DNA of 64,000 nt. Source: Pseudophaeobacter leonis (lineage in GTDB: Bacteria > Pseudomonadota > Alphaproteobacteria > Rhodobacterales > Rhodobacteraceae). Positions 1-6,079 of the stretch are shown one piece after another; positions within the stretch are counted from its first letter, which is position 1; the number at the start of each line of letters is the position of its first letter. The DNA is taken from contig NZ_MWVJ01000005.1 in the NCBI RefSeq assembly GCF_002087335.1, forward strand, positions 1 through 64,000, given 5' to 3'. Made by a program: the position numbers and the translations under genes. The notes under the pieces were generated by a model that worked only from the letters and a program-made list of their open reading frames with translations, searched no databases and was not told the DNA's origin.

Positions 1-519
1 CGCCAGGCTGCCCTGATCTTCGGTTGCGAGTTTGACCGCCTCTGACGGGATGGCGGGGCGTGCAGGGGTGTGACGGCTGCTTTGGAAGGTGGCCAATGCG
101 GTTTCTGTCTTGCGGGTGGCCTCGGCGATTTCCTGCAGTTTCTGGCTGACCGTTGGCTCTCCGGAGGCATCGGTCTGCTGCACATGGGTGAGGTAGCTGT
201 AGCGCAGGCTGTCAATCGCCGCCTGCAGGCGCTGGCTTTCGCCGCGCATCACCCGGGCCGAGCGCAGAGCCGAGGGGCCAACCCAGATCATCACCAGCGG
301 CATGGCAATCGCCAAGGCTGTCAGGACCATTGGGGTCCAGTGGGCAAGGCCCTTGTCTGCCGGAGCCAGCAGATACAGGGCCAAAATCACCAGCAGCCAG
401 AGGGCTGACAGCAAAATGGCAATGATCTCGGCGCTACCCATTCCTGCATCGTCCTGGCCTTCGCTGGTGCCGCTCTCAGAAAGAGAGGGGGGGCGTTTTG
501 AGGCTTCCTGGGCAGTCAT
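1..519 (-). CDS. Conserved membrane protein of unknown function (partial, runs off left edge)
   Basis: The minus-strand frame opens with ATG at 519 and stays open to the window edge, giving at least 173 residues. A hydrophilic N-terminus is followed by two hydrophobic stretches (about residues 30-52 and 58-80), read as two membrane segments. After these comes a polar, probably coiled-coil part containing QRLQAAIDSLRYS and QKLQEIAEATRK. I do not recognise a named domain. It lies downstream of greA on the same strand with a strong hairpin between, so it need not be cotranscribed. The C-terminus is outside the window, so size and function stay open. Confidence 0.6.
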   Translation of the reverse strand, partial: MTAQEASKRPPSLSESGTSEGQDDAGMGSAEIIAILLSALWLLVILALYLLAPADKGLAHWTPMVLTALAIAMPLVMIWVGPSALRSARVMRGESQRLQAAIDSLRYSYLTHVQQTDASGEPTVSQKLQEIAEATRKTETALATFQSSRHTPARPAIPSEAVKLATEDQGSLA

Positions 520-587
520 ATGCAAGCTCGCAATGCGGGAATGGAACGGGGTTGAAACAAGGCTACCGGTTTCAGATGCGGTGGCAA

Positions 588-615
588 GGGGGGCGGCGCA
601 ATTGCGCCGTCCCCC
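588..615. terminator. GC-rich perfect palindrome downstream of greA
   Basis: Fourteen-base arms centred on GCGCAATTGCGC form an almost perfect hairpin (one G-U pair) beginning 14 bp past the greA stop. There is no T-run on either side, so it may slow or stabilise RNA ends rather than act as a canonical intrinsic terminator. Confidence 0.45.
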
Positions 616-628
616 ATGATTGGTAAAC

Positions 629-1099
629 TTAGCGGTAAACGATGCTCAGGATCTCGTAGCCGCGCACACCACCGGGGGTGCGGACCTCGACACTGTCACC
701 TTCGTCCTTGCCGATAAGGGCGCGGGCAATGGGGGATTTGATGTTCAAAAGCCCGGCCTCGACATTGGCCTCGTGCTCGCCGACGATCTGCCAGGTTTTC
801 TCCTGATCGGTATCTTCGTCAACCAGGGTGACACGGGCGCCGAATTTAACCGTGCCCGAGAGTTTGGCCGGGTCGATCACATCGGCAAGGCTCAGGATGC
901 CTTCGAGTTCCTTGATGCGGCCCTCAATAAAAGAGTGCTTTTCGCGGGCAGAGTGGTATTCGGCGTTTTCCGAAAGATCGCCCAGTTCGCGGGCTTCGGC
1001 AATGGCCTGAATAATCGCCGTACGTTCAACCGTTTTAAGTTTCTTCATTTCGGCTTCCAGTGCGGTGTGACCCGCAGAAGTCATAGGGATCTTTTCCAT
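629..1099 (-). CDS. greA: Transcription elongation factor GreA
   Basis: At 156 aa this is the usual GreA length. The N-terminal antiparallel coiled coil (residues 1-75) contains the family hallmarks MTSAGHTALEAEMKKL and ARELGDLSENAEYHSAREK. The C-terminal FKBP-like half carries IVGEHEANVEAGLLNIKSPIARALIGK. GreA inserts its coiled coil into the RNA polymerase secondary channel and stimulates cleavage of backtracked transcripts. The start at 1099 gives the expected MEKIPMT N-terminus. The gene stands alone between hairpins on both sides, consistent with its own transcription unit. Confidence 0.97.
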   Translation of the reverse strand: MEKIPMTSAGHTALEAEMKKLKTVERTAIIQAIAEARELGDLSENAEYHSAREKHSFIEGRIKELEGILSLADVIDPAKLSGTVKFGARVTLVDEDTDQEKTWQIVGEHEANVEAGLLNIKSPIARALIGKDEGDSVEVRTPGGVRGYEILSIVYR

Positions 1100-1171
1100 T
1101 TCTTGGGTCAGGTCGTTTGGCTAAAAAACTAGCTCTTGGGTCATGTTGCTTTTGTTTGCGCCAAAGGCAGA

Positions 1172-1197
1172 GCCCCGCCACAGAGCTGCAGCGGGGC
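1172..1197. terminator. Hairpin between greA and the glyoxalase-like gene
   Basis: A seven-base GCCCCGC/GCGGGGC stem with a 12-base loop is followed on the plus side by CTTTCTTT and on the minus side by a weaker T-containing stretch. It lies downstream of the minus-strand gene at 1371-1754 and probably separates its transcript from greA. Confidence 0.45.
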
Positions 1198-1370
1198 CTT
1201 TCTTTGTGTTGGCAATTACCTGACCCAATCTGGGTGTGAATTTCAAGAGGGCGGAGACATCTGTTGCCAGACTAATACACTCAATCCACAGATTTTACTG
1301 TTTGCTGCCGGGTTTGCGCGGAAAAATGCTGTGGTCAGGCAGCTGCGGCAGCCCAACCTGCCATAAAAGA

Positions 1371-1754
1371 TCAATCATCATACTGTACCGCCTCATATTC
1401 GATCCCATCGGCGTCATGGAAATAGAGGCGGCGACCGGGCTCATAATCTCCGTGGTTGTGCGGCGTGAAGCCAGCTGCCTTGACCGCCGCTTCGGTGGCG
1501 GTGAGGTCCGTGACCACCACCGCCAGATGGTTGAGGCCTCCCTTGGTCTGGTAACTTTCCGGTGCCTCGCCGGGGGCGGCCGGGGGGGAATAGAGCGCAA
1601 GGTAGCTGTCCGCGCTGCCCACATGCAGGCTGCGGCCGCCGTTGATCGATGCGCCCGACCAGCGGGTGTGCCAGCCAAAGACCTGCGCCATCCATGCGGC
1701 GGTGGCTTCGGGGTTGCTGACGGTGACATTGGCATGTTCGAGAATGGCGCTCAT
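1371..1754 (-). CDS. VOC-family (glyoxalase/bleomycin-resistance type) protein
   Basis: The product is 127 aa with the beta-alpha-beta-beta-beta repeats of the vicinal-oxygen-chelate fold. The N-terminal LEHANVTVSNPEATAAW and the C-terminal HLAVVVTDLTATEAAVKAAG with YLYFHDADGIEYE-like elements are typical; a His near each half and the terminal Glu are candidate metal ligands. An AGGAG ribosome-binding site precedes the ATG. Substrate cannot be assigned. It is divergent from soxR and its promoter contains a SoxR-type operator with 19-bp spacing, so it is probably induced by redox-cycling agents. A detoxification role is inferred from that context only. Confidence 0.85.
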   Translation of the reverse strand: MSAILEHANVTVSNPEATAAWMAQVFGWHTRWSGASINGGRSLHVGSADSYLALYSPPAAPGEAPESYQTKGGLNHLAVVVTDLTATEAAVKAAGFTPHNHGDYEPGRRLYFHDADGIEYEAVQYDD

Positions 1755-1806
1755 GTGTCGATCTCCTGAGTGTAGTTTTGGGTTTCGTTTTGACCTGAGT
1801 CTCCTT

Positions 1807-1837
1807 ACGGTAATTTCTCAACCTAACTTTAGGTCAA
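1807..1837 (-). promoter_or_regulatory. SoxR/MerR-type promoter of the glyoxalase-like gene
   Basis: Read on the minus strand, a -35 TTGACC (1832-1837) and a -10 TACCGT (1807-1812) are separated by exactly 19 bp, the overlong spacing used by MerR-family activators. The spacer holds the palindrome ACCTAA-CT-TTAGGT (1821-1834). The arrangement resembles the soxS operator of enterobacteria, and soxR itself begins 34 bp away. Confidence 0.75.
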
Positions 1838-1870
1838 GGTAATTTTGAACAATTTTGCGGAGGCGGAAAC

Positions 1871-2338
1871 ATGGCGAAATCAGCAGGGGTGGCGATCGGA
1901 TATCTCGCGGAGCGCGCTGGGCTGGCAGTCTCGGCCATTCGTTACTACGAGGCGCAGGGCCTGCTGGAGCCCTGGCGCAATTCTGGCGGACAGCGGAGGT
2001 TTCACCGGGCAGATATTCGCCGTCTCAGTTTTGTTATGATCGCGCAGCAGTTTGGATTTTCCCTGCCTGAAATCCGGGGCCTTCTAAAGGATCTGCCGGG
2101 GGGGCGGACGCCAACACCGGCAGACTGGGCCCGGATCTCGTCCGGGTTTCGCAGCCATCTGGATCAGCGAATCGAAACGCTGCAAAAACTGCGCGACAAT
2201 CTGGATGGCTGTATTGGTTGCGGCTGTCTGGCGCTGCCAAACTGTGCTCTGTACAACCCGCAGGACAGGGCAGCGCAAAAAGGCAAGGGGCCGCGATACC
2301 TGATGGGAGACAGTCCAGAGCCGCAAAACGGGTCATAA
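1871..2338 (+). CDS. soxR: Redox-sensitive transcriptional activator SoxR
   Basis: This is a 155-aa MerR-family regulator. The N-terminal winged helix-turn-helix (about residues 8-75) has SAIRYYEAQGLL and the RRF motif. A dimerisation helix follows. Near the C-terminus the cysteine cluster at residues 114, 117, 119 and 125 (CIGCGCLALPNC) is the [2Fe-2S] ligand set that defines SoxR. Oxidation of the cluster by redox-active compounds activates transcription from promoters with 19-bp spacers. It is divergent from the VOC gene and shares the 116-bp intergenic region that holds the operator. No soxS is visible, as expected outside enterobacteria. Confidence 0.95.
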   Translation: MAKSAGVAIGYLAERAGLAVSAIRYYEAQGLLEPWRNSGGQRRFHRADIRRLSFVMIAQQFGFSLPEIRGLLKDLPGGRTPTPADWARISSGFRSHLDQRIETLQKLRDNLDGCIGCGCLALPNCALYNPQDRAAQKGKGPRYLMGDSPEPQNGS

Positions 2339-2511
2339 GGCATAAAAACGGGCAGTGCCCCTGCGGCAAAGCGCGGATCCGTAGCAACTAACGCAGAGTT
2401 TGGATTGACCTCGCCGGGTGCCAAACGCTAATCAACGGCGAAAGAAAATTACGCCCAGGTAGGGCCCAGAGAGGGGACCGGTAGCGAACACAATAGCCAA
2501 GGAGCACCTCT

Positions 2512-4161
2512 ATGGCCGAGATCGAACGCGAAACGTTGGATTATGACGTAGTGATCGTAGGGGCTGGTCCTGCCGGTCTTTCTGCCGCGATCCGTCTCAA
2601 GCAGCTGGACGCCGACCTTGAGGTCGTGGTTCTGGAGAAGGGCTCGGAGGTGGGCGCGCATATCCTGTCGGGTGCCGTGCTGGACCCCTGCGGGCTCGAC
2701 GCCCTGATCCCGGACTGGAAGGAAAAAGGCGCGCCTTTGAATGTGCCGGTGGTCGAAGACCATTTCTACATGCTGGGCGAGGCGGGGGAAATCCGCATCC
2801 CCAACTTCCCGATGCCCCCCCTGATGGACAACCACCGCAACTATGTTGTCTCGATGGGCAATGTCTGCCGCTGGATGGCGGAACAGGCCGAAGAACTGGG
2901 CGTCGAGATCTTTCCGGGCATGTCCTGCTCAGAGCTGGTTTACGGCGACAATGGCGAAGTCAAAGGCGTGGTCGCCGGTGTTTTTGGTCTGGAAGCAGAC
3001 GGCTCTTACGGCCCCAACACCGAGCCGGGCATGGTGCTGAACGGCAAGTATGTGTTCCTCAGCGAAGGCGCGCGTGGCTCGCTCTCTAAAGAGGTGATCT
3101 CCAAATACGCTCTTGATCAGGGCAAGGAGCCGCAGAAATACGGCCTGGGGATGAAAGAGATCTGGGAAATTGATCCGGCCAAGCACAAGCCCGGCTCGGT
3201 CACCCATACCATGGGCTGGCCATTGGGAGTTAAAAACACCGGTGGCACCTTCATTTATCACCTGGACAATAATCAGGTCTATGTCGGCATGATCGTGGAT
3301 CTGAACTACAAGAACCCGCATCTGTTCCCCTATATGGAATTCCAGCGGTTCAAACATCACCCCATGGTGGCAGAGCTGCTGGAAGGCGGCAAACGCGTCG
3401 CATATGGCGCGCGGGCTGTGACCAAGGGTGGCACCCAGTCGATGCCGGATGCAGCCTTTCCGGGCGGCGCGCTTTTGGGCTGCTCTGTTGGCCTGGTGAA
3501 CCTGCCGCGCATCAAGGGCAACCACAACGCGATGCATTCAGGTCGTCAGGCGGCCGAAGCGGCCTATGCTGCGATCAAGGCGGGCCGCAGTGGCGACACT
3601 CTGGTGGAATACGACAGCGACCTGCGCACCGGCCCTGTTGGCAAGGATCTGAAAAAAGTGCGTAATGTTGCGCCGCTGAATGCCCGTTTTGGCCTGATGG
3701 GTGGCCTGTTGGTCGGTGGCTTTGACATGTGGTGCAACACGCTGTTTGGTGTCTCGCCGCTGGGCACGCTGGGTCACGGGAAATCCGATGCCGAGGCAAC
3801 GGAACCCGCCTCTAAGCACAAGGTGATCGACTATCCAAAACCCGATGGAAAGCTGAGCTTTGACCGGCTGACCAATGTTGCGTTCTCCTTTACCAACCAC
3901 GAAGAAAGCCAACCGGCGCATTTGCGCCTCAAGGACGCAAGTATCCCTGTGGGTGTGAACCTTGCGACCTATGCAGGCCCCTCGGCGCGCTACTGCCCTG
4001 CCGGCGTGTATGAGTTTGTCGAAAAAGACGGCAAGCAAGAGTTCGTGATCAACTTTCAGAACTGCGTGCATTGCAAAACCTGCGATATCAAAGACCCCAG
4101 CCAGAACATCACCTGGACGACACCACAGGGTGGCGACGGTCCAAACTATCCAAATATGTAA
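2512..4161 (+). CDS. Electron transfer flavoprotein-ubiquinone oxidoreductase
   Basis: The 549-aa product matches the usual ETF-QO length. An N-terminal FAD-binding Rossmann motif, VIVGAGPAGLSAA, is at about residues 14-26. The C-terminal [4Fe-4S] ferredoxin-like segment has Cys at 518, 521 and 524 (CVHCKTC) with a further Cys in ARYCPAG upstream. The enzyme is bound to the inner membrane and passes electrons from ETF, reduced by acyl-CoA and dimethylglycine-type dehydrogenases, to ubiquinone. The start at 2512 follows an AGGAGC ribosome-binding site. It appears monocistronic, with a hairpin closing the region downstream. Confidence 0.96.
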   Translation: MAEIERETLDYDVVIVGAGPAGLSAAIRLKQLDADLEVVVLEKGSEVGAHILSGAVLDPCGLDALIPDWKEKGAPLNVPVVEDHFYMLGEAGEIRIPNFPMPPLMDNHRNYVVSMGNVCRWMAEQAEELGVEIFPGMSCSELVYGDNGEVKGVVAGVFGLEADGSYGPNTEPGMVLNGKYVFLSEGARGSLSKEVISKYALDQGKEPQKYGLGMKEIWEIDPAKHKPGSVTHTMGWPLGVKNTGGTFIYHLDNNQVYVGMIVDLNYKNPHLFPYMEFQRFKHHPMVAELLEGGKRVAYGARAVTKGGTQSMPDAAFPGGALLGCSVGLVNLPRIKGNHNAMHSGRQAAEAAYAAIKAGRSGDTLVEYDSDLRTGPVGKDLKKVRNVAPLNARFGLMGGLLVGGFDMWCNTLFGVSPLGTLGHGKSDAEATEPASKHKVIDYPKPDGKLSFDRLTNVAFSFTNHEESQPAHLRLKDASIPVGVNLATYAGPSARYCPAGVYEFVEKDGKQEFVINFQNCVHCKTCDIKDPSQNITWTTPQGGDGPNYPNM

Positions 4162-4167
4162 ATCCAC

Positions 4168-4202
4168 CTGGGGCAAAACTGGGGGCAAAACTGGGGGTAA
4201 AA
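4168..4202. repeat. Short tandem repeat, 11-12 bp unit, three copies
   Basis: Three successive units of the form CTGGGG(G)(C/T)AAAA begin 7 bp after the ETF-QO stop codon. They resemble the other small minisatellites found at gene 3' ends in this window. Confidence 0.7.
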
Positions 4203-4253
4203 CAGGCGGCAGAACGCTTGTCTGGCGCAATATATATGGAAATCACGTAAAAT

Positions 4254-4277
4254 TGGGGCGGCCTTCGGGTCGCCCCA
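4254..4277 (+). terminator. UUCG-capped hairpin downstream of ETF-QO
   Basis: A ten-base stem TGGGGCGGCC/GGTCGCCCCA (one G-U pair) closes on a TTCG tetraloop, an unusually stable RNA hairpin. It lies about 90 bp after the stop codon. The 3' flank lacks a strong T-run, so terminator strength is uncertain. Confidence 0.5.
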
Positions 4278-4345
4278 TTGCGTGTGGACAGGTCCCGCAC
4301 TACGTTTCCTTTTAAGCGACGTACATACGTATAGGAGAGTTCCGA

Positions 4346-6079
4346 GTGCCGGCATCATATCTTCGCAACCTGCCAGCGCTGGCATTGGTTGCCTTTTCTG
4401 CGACAGGACCCCTTGTGAGCGCGCAAAGCGCTGCAGCTGATGGTCTGGCGGGGGCCTATCTCGCCGGGCGCGCGGCCACCTATGAAAGCGACTTCTCGGC
4501 GGCGGCAGAGTATTACACCCGCGCGCTGGTCCGCGACCCGGCCAATCTGGTGCTGATGGAGAACGTGGTCTTTGCGCAACTGGCGCAGGGCCGTTTGAAG
4601 CAGGCGCTCCCTGTCGCCGAGCGGCTTTGGCAGGCCGGGGCGCGTAGCCAGGTTGCCAATATCGTTATGATGGGGGGCTTTGTCCTCTCCGATAACTACC
4701 AGGCCATTCTGGACCGTGATCTTGAAACGCGGCAAATTCATCCACTGGTGGACGGGCTGCTAAAGGCCTGGGCGCATATGGGGATCGGCTCGGTTGACGA
4801 GGCGATCAAGGCCTTTGACCAGGTCGCCGAAGAAGAGGCCCTGCGGGCCTTTGCCACCTATCACAAGGCCCTGGCCCTGGCCTCAGCCGGCAATTACGGC
4901 GCCGCTGAAGCGCTGTTTGCGGCGGAGGATGGCCAGCTCACCCGGCTGTCGCGGCGCGCGGCGCTGGCGCGGATTGAAATCCAGTCACAGCTTGGCGAAA
5001 ATGATATGGCGCTGGCCACTTTGGATGCCGCGTTTGGTGCTGGCAATGATCCAGCCCTTGCCGCAATGCGCAAGCGCCTCGAGGCCGGTGAGGCGCTGGG
5101 CTTCTCGGTTGCCAGTACAGCCCGCGATGGTATCGCCGAGGTGTTTTATACGCTTGCGGCTGTGATGACCGGTGAAGCTGCCAATGATTTTGTCCTGATG
5201 TATGCCCGCATGGCTTCGGCTCTTAGCCCGGAGCATGTGGATGCAGTGCTGCTGAGCGCCGAGTTGCTGGATCAGCTGGGGCGCTATGAGCTGTCAATTG
5301 CCACCTATAAACAGGTGCCGAGCGGCCATCCCGAGTATTACGCCGCCGAAATGGGCCGTGCCGAGGCGCTACGCCGTGCGGCCAAACCGGATGCCGCCGT
5401 CGAAGTGCTGGAGCAGCTGGTGCAGGACTTTCCGACCCTGCCGCAGATTTCGACTGGACTGGGCGATCTGCTGCGCCAGCAAGAGGACTATGTCGGCGCA
5501 GCAGCGGCCTATGACTCTGCGCTGGGCAATATGCCCGAGAATTCTGGCAGCCGCTGGTTTCTGTACTACGCCCGCGGGATTTCCTATGAGCGGCTTTCTG
5601 ACTGGCCAAAGGCCGAAGCGGACTTTCGCGCCTCGCTGGCGCTGCGTCCCGACAGTCCGCAGGTTTTGAATTATCTCGGGTATTCCTTGATCGAGAAAGA
5701 AGACAAACTGGACGAGGCGCTGAGCATGATTGAGCGCGCCGTCGCGGCCCGGCCGGACTCGGGCTATATCGTCGATAGTCTGGGATGGGTACTGTACCGT
5801 CTTGGCCGCTATCGTGAGGCGGTGGGCCATATGGAGCGCGCCGTTGAGCTGATGCCGGAGGATCCGGTGGTGAACGACCATTTGGGCGACGTTTTCTGGG
5901 CGGTTGGACGTCAACGCGAGGCTGAATTCCAGTGGAAGCGGGCGTTGTCGTTCATCCGCTCTGGCGAGGGCGACGGCGAGGCTGATCCCGAGCGGATCCG
6001 CAGCAAGCTGGAACTGGGTCTGGATGCCGTTCTGGAGCAGGAAGGCGCCGCCCCCCTGCAGGTGGCCAATGGGGGTTGA
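4346..6079 (+). CDS. Secreted/periplasmic tetratricopeptide-repeat protein
   Basis: The 577-aa product starts at a GTG preceded by TAGGAGAG. A hydrophobic N-terminus (LPALALVAFSATGPLVSAQ) looks like a signal peptide. The rest is a run of TPR motifs, clearest at YYTRALVRDPANLVL, ATYKQVPSGHPEYY, AYDSALGNMPEN, DFRASLALRPDS, MIERAVAARPDSGY and HMERAVELMPEDPVV. Such proteins are protein-protein scaffolds, and no catalytic domain is seen. The 3' end overlaps the ispE start by 11 bp, so the two are translationally coupled. That arrangement is common in Rhodobacteraceae and tells little about function. Confidence 0.85.
   Translation: MPASYLRNLPALALVAFSATGPLVSAQSAAADGLAGAYLAGRAATYESDFSAAAEYYTRALVRDPANLVLMENVVFAQLAQGRLKQALPVAERLWQAGARSQVANIVMMGGFVLSDNYQAILDRDLETRQIHPLVDGLLKAWAHMGIGSVDEAIKAFDQVAEEEALRAFATYHKALALASAGNYGAAEALFAAEDGQLTRLSRRAALARIEIQSQLGENDMALATLDAAFGAGNDPALAAMRKRLEAGEALGFSVASTARDGIAEVFYTLAAVMTGEAANDFVLMYARMASALSPEHVDAVLLSAELLDQLGRYELSIATYKQVPSGHPEYYAAEMGRAEALRRAAKPDAAVEVLEQLVQDFPTLPQISTGLGDLLRQQEDYVGAAAAYDSALGNMPENSGSRWFLYYARGISYERLSDWPKAEADFRASLALRPDSPQVLNYLGYSLIEKEDKLDEALSMIERAVAARPDSGYIVDSLGWVLYRLGRYREAVGHMERAVELMPEDPVVNDHLGDVFWAVGRQREAEFQWKRALSFIRSGEGDGEADPERIRSKLELGLDAVLEQEGAAPLQVANGG

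Follow-up and report, generated by a model that had tools for sequence, protein, structure and literature searches.

A conserved SoxR-type promoter facing a VOC-family gene in Pseudophaeobacter leonis, and a predicted two-gene SoxR regulon in its genus

In the systems characterised so far, the [2Fe-2S] cluster of SoxR responds to redox-active compounds, and the oxidised, DNA-bound dimer distorts a promoter with a long spacer, as set out in the accessible parts of PMC4146615 and PMC4411124. Outside the enteric bacteria, according to the same portions of PMC4146615, the absence of soxS is normal, and SoxR governs few target genes, which are devoted to transport and small-molecule modification. 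One described counterpart of the locus analysed here is the soxR-mfsA pair of Stenotrophomonas maltophilia, where, in the available text of PMC4411124, soxR is likewise divergent from its direct target, the mfsA promoter likewise has its SoxR box between TTGACC and the -10 element with a 19-bp spacer, and the biochemically tested box matches the E. coli box at 14 of 18 positions, the same count as the box reported below. The S. maltophilia target, by the same account, is an MFS efflux pump, whereas here the predicted target is a putative enzyme of the VOC family (glyoxalase/bleomycin-resistance/dioxygenase fold).

The window, that is, the whole stretch of DNA that was analysed, comprises 64,000 nt of Pseudophaeobacter leonis (GCF_002087335.1, NZ_MWVJ01000005.1, positions 1-64,000 of the forward strand). 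On the plus strand, at 1871..2338, it encodes a redox-sensitive MerR-family activator of 155 aa, preceded by the ribosome-binding site GGAGG (1859..1863, plus strand; like the other short signals given here, a reading of the sequence). The protein scores 182 bits against TIGR01950 (cut-off 116.9), matches E. coli SoxR (PDB 2zhg) with an E-value of 4.1e-37, and carries the CX2CXCX5C [2Fe-2S] motif, which recurs in 65 of 65 other SoxR proteins of the family and serves as the SoxR criterion in the accessible part of PMC4146615; judged by these features, the gene at 1871-2338 is a true soxR. Divergent from it, on the minus strand, lies the predicted SoxR target, the VOC gene (1371..1754, 127 aa), with the ribosome-binding site AGGAG (1763..1767, minus strand) 8 nt before its ATG; the next gene after VOC is greA (629-1099), a housekeeping gene distinct from it. 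The SoxR box is located between the two divergent genes. The earlier note had described the promoter as driving a glyoxalase-like gene "instead of soxS", a wording that holds for the locus examined, where the gene divergent from soxR is VOC and not soxS, but that is less of a surprise than it sounds, given that this is the norm outside enteric bacteria (PMC4146615, in the parts available).

The VOC promoter, on the minus strand, consists of a -35 element TTGACC (1832..1837), a 19-bp spacer (1813..1831) and a -10 element TACCGT (1807..1812), exactly where the earlier note had placed them. The SoxR box, CCTAAAGTTAGGTTGAGA, spans 18 bp (1816..1833, minus strand), overlaps the -35 element by 2 bp, and agrees at 14 of 18 positions with the E. 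coli SoxR box CCTCAAGTTAACTTGAGG, the consensus being taken as printed in the accessible part of PMC4411124. Two marks of a SoxR-activated promoter are thus in place, an 18-bp box between the -35 and -10 elements and an overlong, 19-bp spacer. The TTG of the -35 element is present in all 30 distinct promoters of the named loci introduced below, and the -10 hexamer is weak, with 3 of 6 matches to TATAAT. The dyad ACCTAA-CT-TTAGGT, proposed initially as the operator, has to be replaced by this conserved 18-bp box: the dyad occupies 1821-1834, extends 3 bp into the -35 element, and has its centre 3 bp off that of the box. Such an off-centre dyad can form only where the 22-mer anchored at TTG has GG at positions 15-16, as 16 of 59 distinct family boxes and 15 of 32 distinct boxes of the named loci do; it is therefore a side effect of a single box variant. 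At these two positions, VOC promoters commonly have either the symmetric AC or the asymmetric GG, with GC coming third. A sigma-70 scan of 1100-2520 returned no promoter-like site, the scan accepting spacers of 16-18 bp and being blind to one of 19 bp, and an Rfam search of 1-4500 gave no match.

How often such a box would occur by chance was gauged with the pattern TTGANCTNAAGTNNNNTTNAG, which has 14 fixed bases, and its reversed form as the control. Without mismatches, the pattern occurs once in the P. leonis genome (4,821,592 bases); with up to two mismatches, it yields 10 matches versus 12 for the reversed control, so that the weaker matches as a group are noise, and among the sites with one or two mismatches only the one before an epimerase-like gene, discussed below, was upheld, by comparison across the genus. 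Among 148 genomes of the family, taken one per genus and including that of P. leonis, the exact pattern gives 54 matches in 49 genomes versus a single control match, and most of the 54 are located some tens of bases upstream of soxR. A chance palindrome and an ordinary sigma-70 promoter are ruled out by these counts against the control together with the fixed spacing to the -10 element described below. One family match (L095, genome G090) was set aside as chance; it lies 5' of a gene that by eye resembles rpoB, and its genome encodes no SoxR that reaches the cut-off.

Among named genomes, 50 VOC loci were found, of which the closest (L001-L044) share 51-91% identity and the remainder (L045-L050) 29-34% identity with the VOC protein of the window. 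A divergent soxR with an intervening box is present in 44 of 44 close loci, and no soxR match was found in any of the 6 distant loci; L045 and L046 have no box, L047 fell below the scoring threshold, and L048-L050 lay outside the box scoring. At the family level, SoxR over the cut-off is encoded in 66 of 149 genomes and a VOC ortholog (E < 1e-28) in 63 of 148, and the joint table for 148 genomes has 61 with both genes, 5 with soxR only, 2 with VOC only, and 80 with neither (Fisher P 6e-33, a value overstated by the non-independence of lineages). The five genomes with soxR only (G001, G094, G105, G107, G127) indicate that SoxR can do without VOC. In all 61 two-gene genomes (the window's and 60 others), a box is found upstream of VOC, with 15 to 21 of 22 positions matching; among the boxes linked to soxR, those of L057 and L138 are weak, both at 15/22.

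In 51 of these 61 genomes, soxR and VOC are linked; in the other 10 they are not, and it is these unlinked VOC genes (L159-L168) that make the SoxR-VOC connection independent of gene order: in 10 of 10, the box is retained 62-69 nt before the inferred start, with a score that no shuffled version of the respective upstream region attained (200 shuffles each). The soxR genes of these 10 genomes fall, with three others, into a distinct SoxR lineage (13 members, support 97/93). No soxR of that lineage adjoins VOC in the sample, and the three other genomes have no VOC ortholog. The family SoxR tree as a whole thus comprises two lineages, with soxR adjoining VOC in 51 of 53 members of one and in 0 of 13 of the other. 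VOC without SoxR occurs in only two genomes of the sample (G109 and G123), which makes this control anecdotal. No box precedes the VOC gene of one (L169), and that of the other (L170, genome G109) has a decayed box-like site of 15/22, reached by 0 of 200 shuffles, although that genome, too, encodes no SoxR over the cut-off; hence, the absence of the box does not cleanly track the absence of soxR. The L170 site (L170:2930-2956) lies at the usual distance, and is possibly a box in decay after the loss of soxR.

Farther out, VOC proteins at E 1e-20 or better were detected in 14 of 385 genomes by the class search and in 34 of 398 by the phylum search. The further loci outside the family set (n=32; G762 left out) come from additional genomes of the same family (13), from other families within the class (18) and, in one case (L234), from another class of the phylum. 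The box is present in 32 of 32, with 16 to 21 of 22 matches, and a divergent soxR in 26; the short fetched flanks of the other six (L205, L216, L219, L223, L230, L231) contain no soxR, and all six have the box. The VOC frame of L216 has one internal stop.

Loss of the 19-bp spacer among relatives had been named beforehand as one observation that would speak against a SoxR promoter, and the spacer turned out to be conserved. With the best 22-mer ending before the -10 element as the anchor, and with a box search that did not use the second -10 base, this base (position 1811, minus strand) is A in 59 of 59 distinct promoters of the family, 32 of 32 of the named loci, 31 of 31 of the class/phylum set and 7 of 7 of the genus, these four sets overlapping in part (L001, for example, lies in genus-set genome G151). 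At the first base, T is found in 47 of 59, 30 of 32, 21 of 31 and 7 of 7, respectively, and TA at other offsets from the 22-mer is rare.

The box lies at most 160 nt from VOC in 53 of the 61 two-gene family genomes and 188-288 nt from it in the other 8, which leaves room for a small ORF. Counting the further loci as well, we observed a small ORF within a box-to-VOC interval of 188-288 nt in 12 loci (L122, L123, L124, L134, L139, L141, L142, L144, L202, L217, L218, L220), with a length of 45-67 aa in 11 and of only 24 aa in L202. A motif resembling RDGxGWGHDLDCGC, whole or in part, is found in 8 of the 12, L217 and L218 being near-copies. A Pfam scan of two motif-bearing small ORFs gave no match over the cut-off, and the small ORFs of L122 and L144 have a DUF1127-like end that scores below the DUF1127 cut-off. 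Conceivably, these ORFs might encode a small protein, so far undescribed, whose expression is coupled to that of VOC.

The P. leonis genome has a second SoxR box, outside the window (G000, contig C24:25598-26402; L082:1501-2305) and unlinked to soxR-VOC, 58 nt before a TTG-start gene for an epimerase/dehydratase-like protein (PF01370, 69.8 bits). In the genus, a 27-base promoter pattern with at most one mismatch, written after the two sites of the P. leonis genome were known, gave 24 matches versus 1 for the control, that is, exactly two sites in 12 of 12 genomes, one at soxR-VOC and one 5' of the epimerase/dehydratase-like gene, which is unlinked in all 12 and whose genus copies are 57-73% identical to that of P. 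leonis. These 12 include Roseobacter sp. MED193 (L001), the coordinates of whose two sites are identical to those of G151. Applied to six named genomes, MED193 among them, the same pattern found one site in four and two in two. The predicted regulon accordingly amounts to one or two genes by the 27-base pattern, which would miss weaker sites, and in the genus of the window it looks like an apparently complete two-gene SoxR regulon. Relatives of the epimerase-like protein at E 1e-40 or better occur in only 2 of 147 other family genomes (L172 and L173); the L172 gene has no box, and that of L173 is preceded, at 59 nt, by a box-like site with 15 of 22 matches by our own count. With relatives and boxes this sparse in the wider family, the second target holds at the level of the genus. 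In some other family members (L099, L156, L157, L158), off-site boxes precede genes for MFS-like transporters, as named by eye from the translations.

What the VOC protein might do has to be approached through its fold and residues. It is a single-domain protein (PF00903, 39.5 bits against a Pfam gathering score of 20.6) with an AF2 model of pLDDT 92.3. In an alignment of 38 VOC sequences (the window and 37 of the 50 named loci, the remaining 13, near-copies or weak sequences, being excluded), H7, H76 and E121, which we take to be the expected metal-ligand positions of the VOC fold, are invariant, and the close VOC family shows hardly any variation in the block HNHGDYEPGRRFYF. The top structural matches are bacterial glyoxalase I (4mts and 1f9z, each with Z 15.3), and the other fold matches include FosX/FosA, L-DOPA dioxygenase, homogentisate dioxygenase and TnmS3, identity to the listed structural matches being 10-24%; being spread over several protein types, these matches do not choose a chemistry. 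VOC reaches no cut-off of a named enzyme model, and the only named NCBIfam enzyme that it touches is GloA (NF050074), at 19.5 versus 165 bits, so far below the cut-off that the chemistry is not assignable. From the fold and the residues, VOC is best seen as a probable metal-dependent enzyme of the His-His-Glu kind, acting on whichever redox-active or electrophilic compound induces the system. That its substrate is a redox-active or electrophilic small molecule, as the earlier note suggested, is plausible, and we lean towards it with moderate confidence; the same features, and the persistence of the SoxR-VOC pairing in a large number of relatives, point to a role in detoxification.

The alternative that fares best is that SoxR switches the VOC gene and that its product is an ordinary glyoxalase, which removes methylglyoxal or another by-product of oxidative damage, and not the SoxR inducer. 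The glyoxalase I structures at the head of the fold matches favour this possibility, but the distance from the GloA cut-off counts against it, as does the sequence profile, in which methylmalonyl-CoA epimerase is the best match (E 2.1e-9) and an uncharacterised VOC chain also outscores glyoxalase I. Furthermore, the position that presumably corresponds to the fourth metal ligand of glyoxalase I is A53, by our own reading of the strand, and that ligand seems to be absent. When it is added that the predicted targets of non-enteric SoxR modify or transport small molecules and do not repair damage (PMC4146615, in the available text), a glyoxalase of this kind appears unlikely.

Alternatively, VOC could sequester a redox-active antibiotic without any chemistry, in the manner of TnmS3 or the bleomycin-binding proteins. 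The presence among the top fold matches of TnmS3 in its tiancimycin-bound form (E 5.3e-8) and of the antibiotic-binding TnmS1 (E 8.2e-8) is in line with this idea, but VOC-fold antibiotic-binding proteins are not known to retain the metal triad, whereas the expected H7/H76/E121 triad, which a pure binder need not keep, is invariant in all 38 sequences, and sequestration therefore strikes us as quite improbable. It is still far less credible that the box only represses soxR and that VOC is a bystander on its other side: the box does lie between the two genes, and shared-box autorepression is documented for S. maltophilia SoxR (PMC4411124, in the accessible text), but the box is in the activator register with the VOC -35 and -10 elements at a fixed spacing, VOC and soxR co-occur, and 10 of 10 soxR-unlinked VOC genes of the family keep the box in the same place.

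Conservation of the box, its spacing and the gene pair, also at VOC genes away from soxR, gives strong support to the claim from which this analysis set out, that a SoxR-type promoter faces the VOC gene, and control of the VOC gene by SoxR is, on this comparative evidence, very probable. The computed part of the case comprises the promoter anatomy, the conservation, the co-occurrence and the number of predicted sites; redox switching and soxR autorepression we infer by analogy with characterised SoxR systems. On these premises, a redox-active small molecule would oxidise the [2Fe-2S] cluster of SoxR, the oxidised bound dimer would distort the overlong, 19-bp promoter such that RNA polymerase could open it and transcribe VOC, and the same bound box would probably hold soxR down. 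The unlinked second box would drive the epimerase/dehydratase-like (PF01370) gene, and the VOC enzyme would modify the inducing redox-active or electrophilic compound. Taking the switch, the predicted two-gene scope and the enzymatic role of VOC together, we consider a direct sensor-to-enzyme SoxR regulon to be quite probable.

A broader reading, tentative and on balance doubtful, is that in Alphaproteobacteria the core and perhaps ancestral job of SoxR would be to control one dedicated VOC enzyme that destroys the inducers of SoxR (quinones or phenazines might, for instance, undergo ring-opening oxygenation or be conjugated to thiols), with the epimerase/dehydratase-like protein as its partner in the genus of the window. 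If this is true, the pair would make up a two-enzyme chemical-defence switch with no efflux pump of its own. More generally, the findings give a conserved enzyme its predicted regulator and a trigger that can be put to the test, and offer a direct approach to what SoxR does in the many bacteria that lack soxS.

We found no description of a SoxR-controlled VOC gene in the literature, as far as the sources at hand extend; PMC4146615 cites a survey of SoxR targets, done by bioinformatics, that could list one. The word "glyoxalase" was not found in the main text, as available, of a paper on the proteomics of D. shibae under paraquat. Expression data for soxR/soxS of Ruegeria pomeroyi were set aside: the genes used as oxidative-stress soxR/soxS in Table 2 of PMC9769926 (SPO_RS04980/04985) are numbered directly before soxV-soxF and, going by the locus tags in the available part of that paper, are probably the unrelated sulfur-oxidation soxR/soxS, a clash of names.

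Non-enteric SoxR regulons of this type have been reported, and the kind is therefore already known; it is in the target that the present case differs. Compared with the VOC superfamily members named above (GloA/GloA2, FosX/FosA, the L-DOPA and homogentisate dioxygenases, TnmS3), the VOC protein shares the fold and what we take to be the His-His-Glu positions, but has a conserved block of its own (HNHGDYEPGRRFYF), with only 10-24% identity to them and scores below the cut-offs of the named models. The soxRS system of E. coli shares the SoxR and box architecture, but its target is the regulator soxS, whereas here an enzyme gene would be driven directly (PMC4146615, in its accessible part). Streptomyces coelicolor, according to the same portions of PMC4146615, has no soxS, and its SoxR acts directly on a small number of targets that are for the most part redox enzymes. 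One of these, SCO1178, bears the name NAD-dependent epimerase/dehydratase and falls, by that name, into the broad class of the second target found here (PF01370). The S. coelicolor regulon differs in that it consists of six genes, among them those for an ABC transporter and a monooxygenase, and is tied to actinorhodin, and a VOC protein was not found in it as described in the available text of PMC4146615. Set beside these systems, we rate the VOC gene as a new and unusually well conserved predicted SoxR target, accompanied by a second partner gene.
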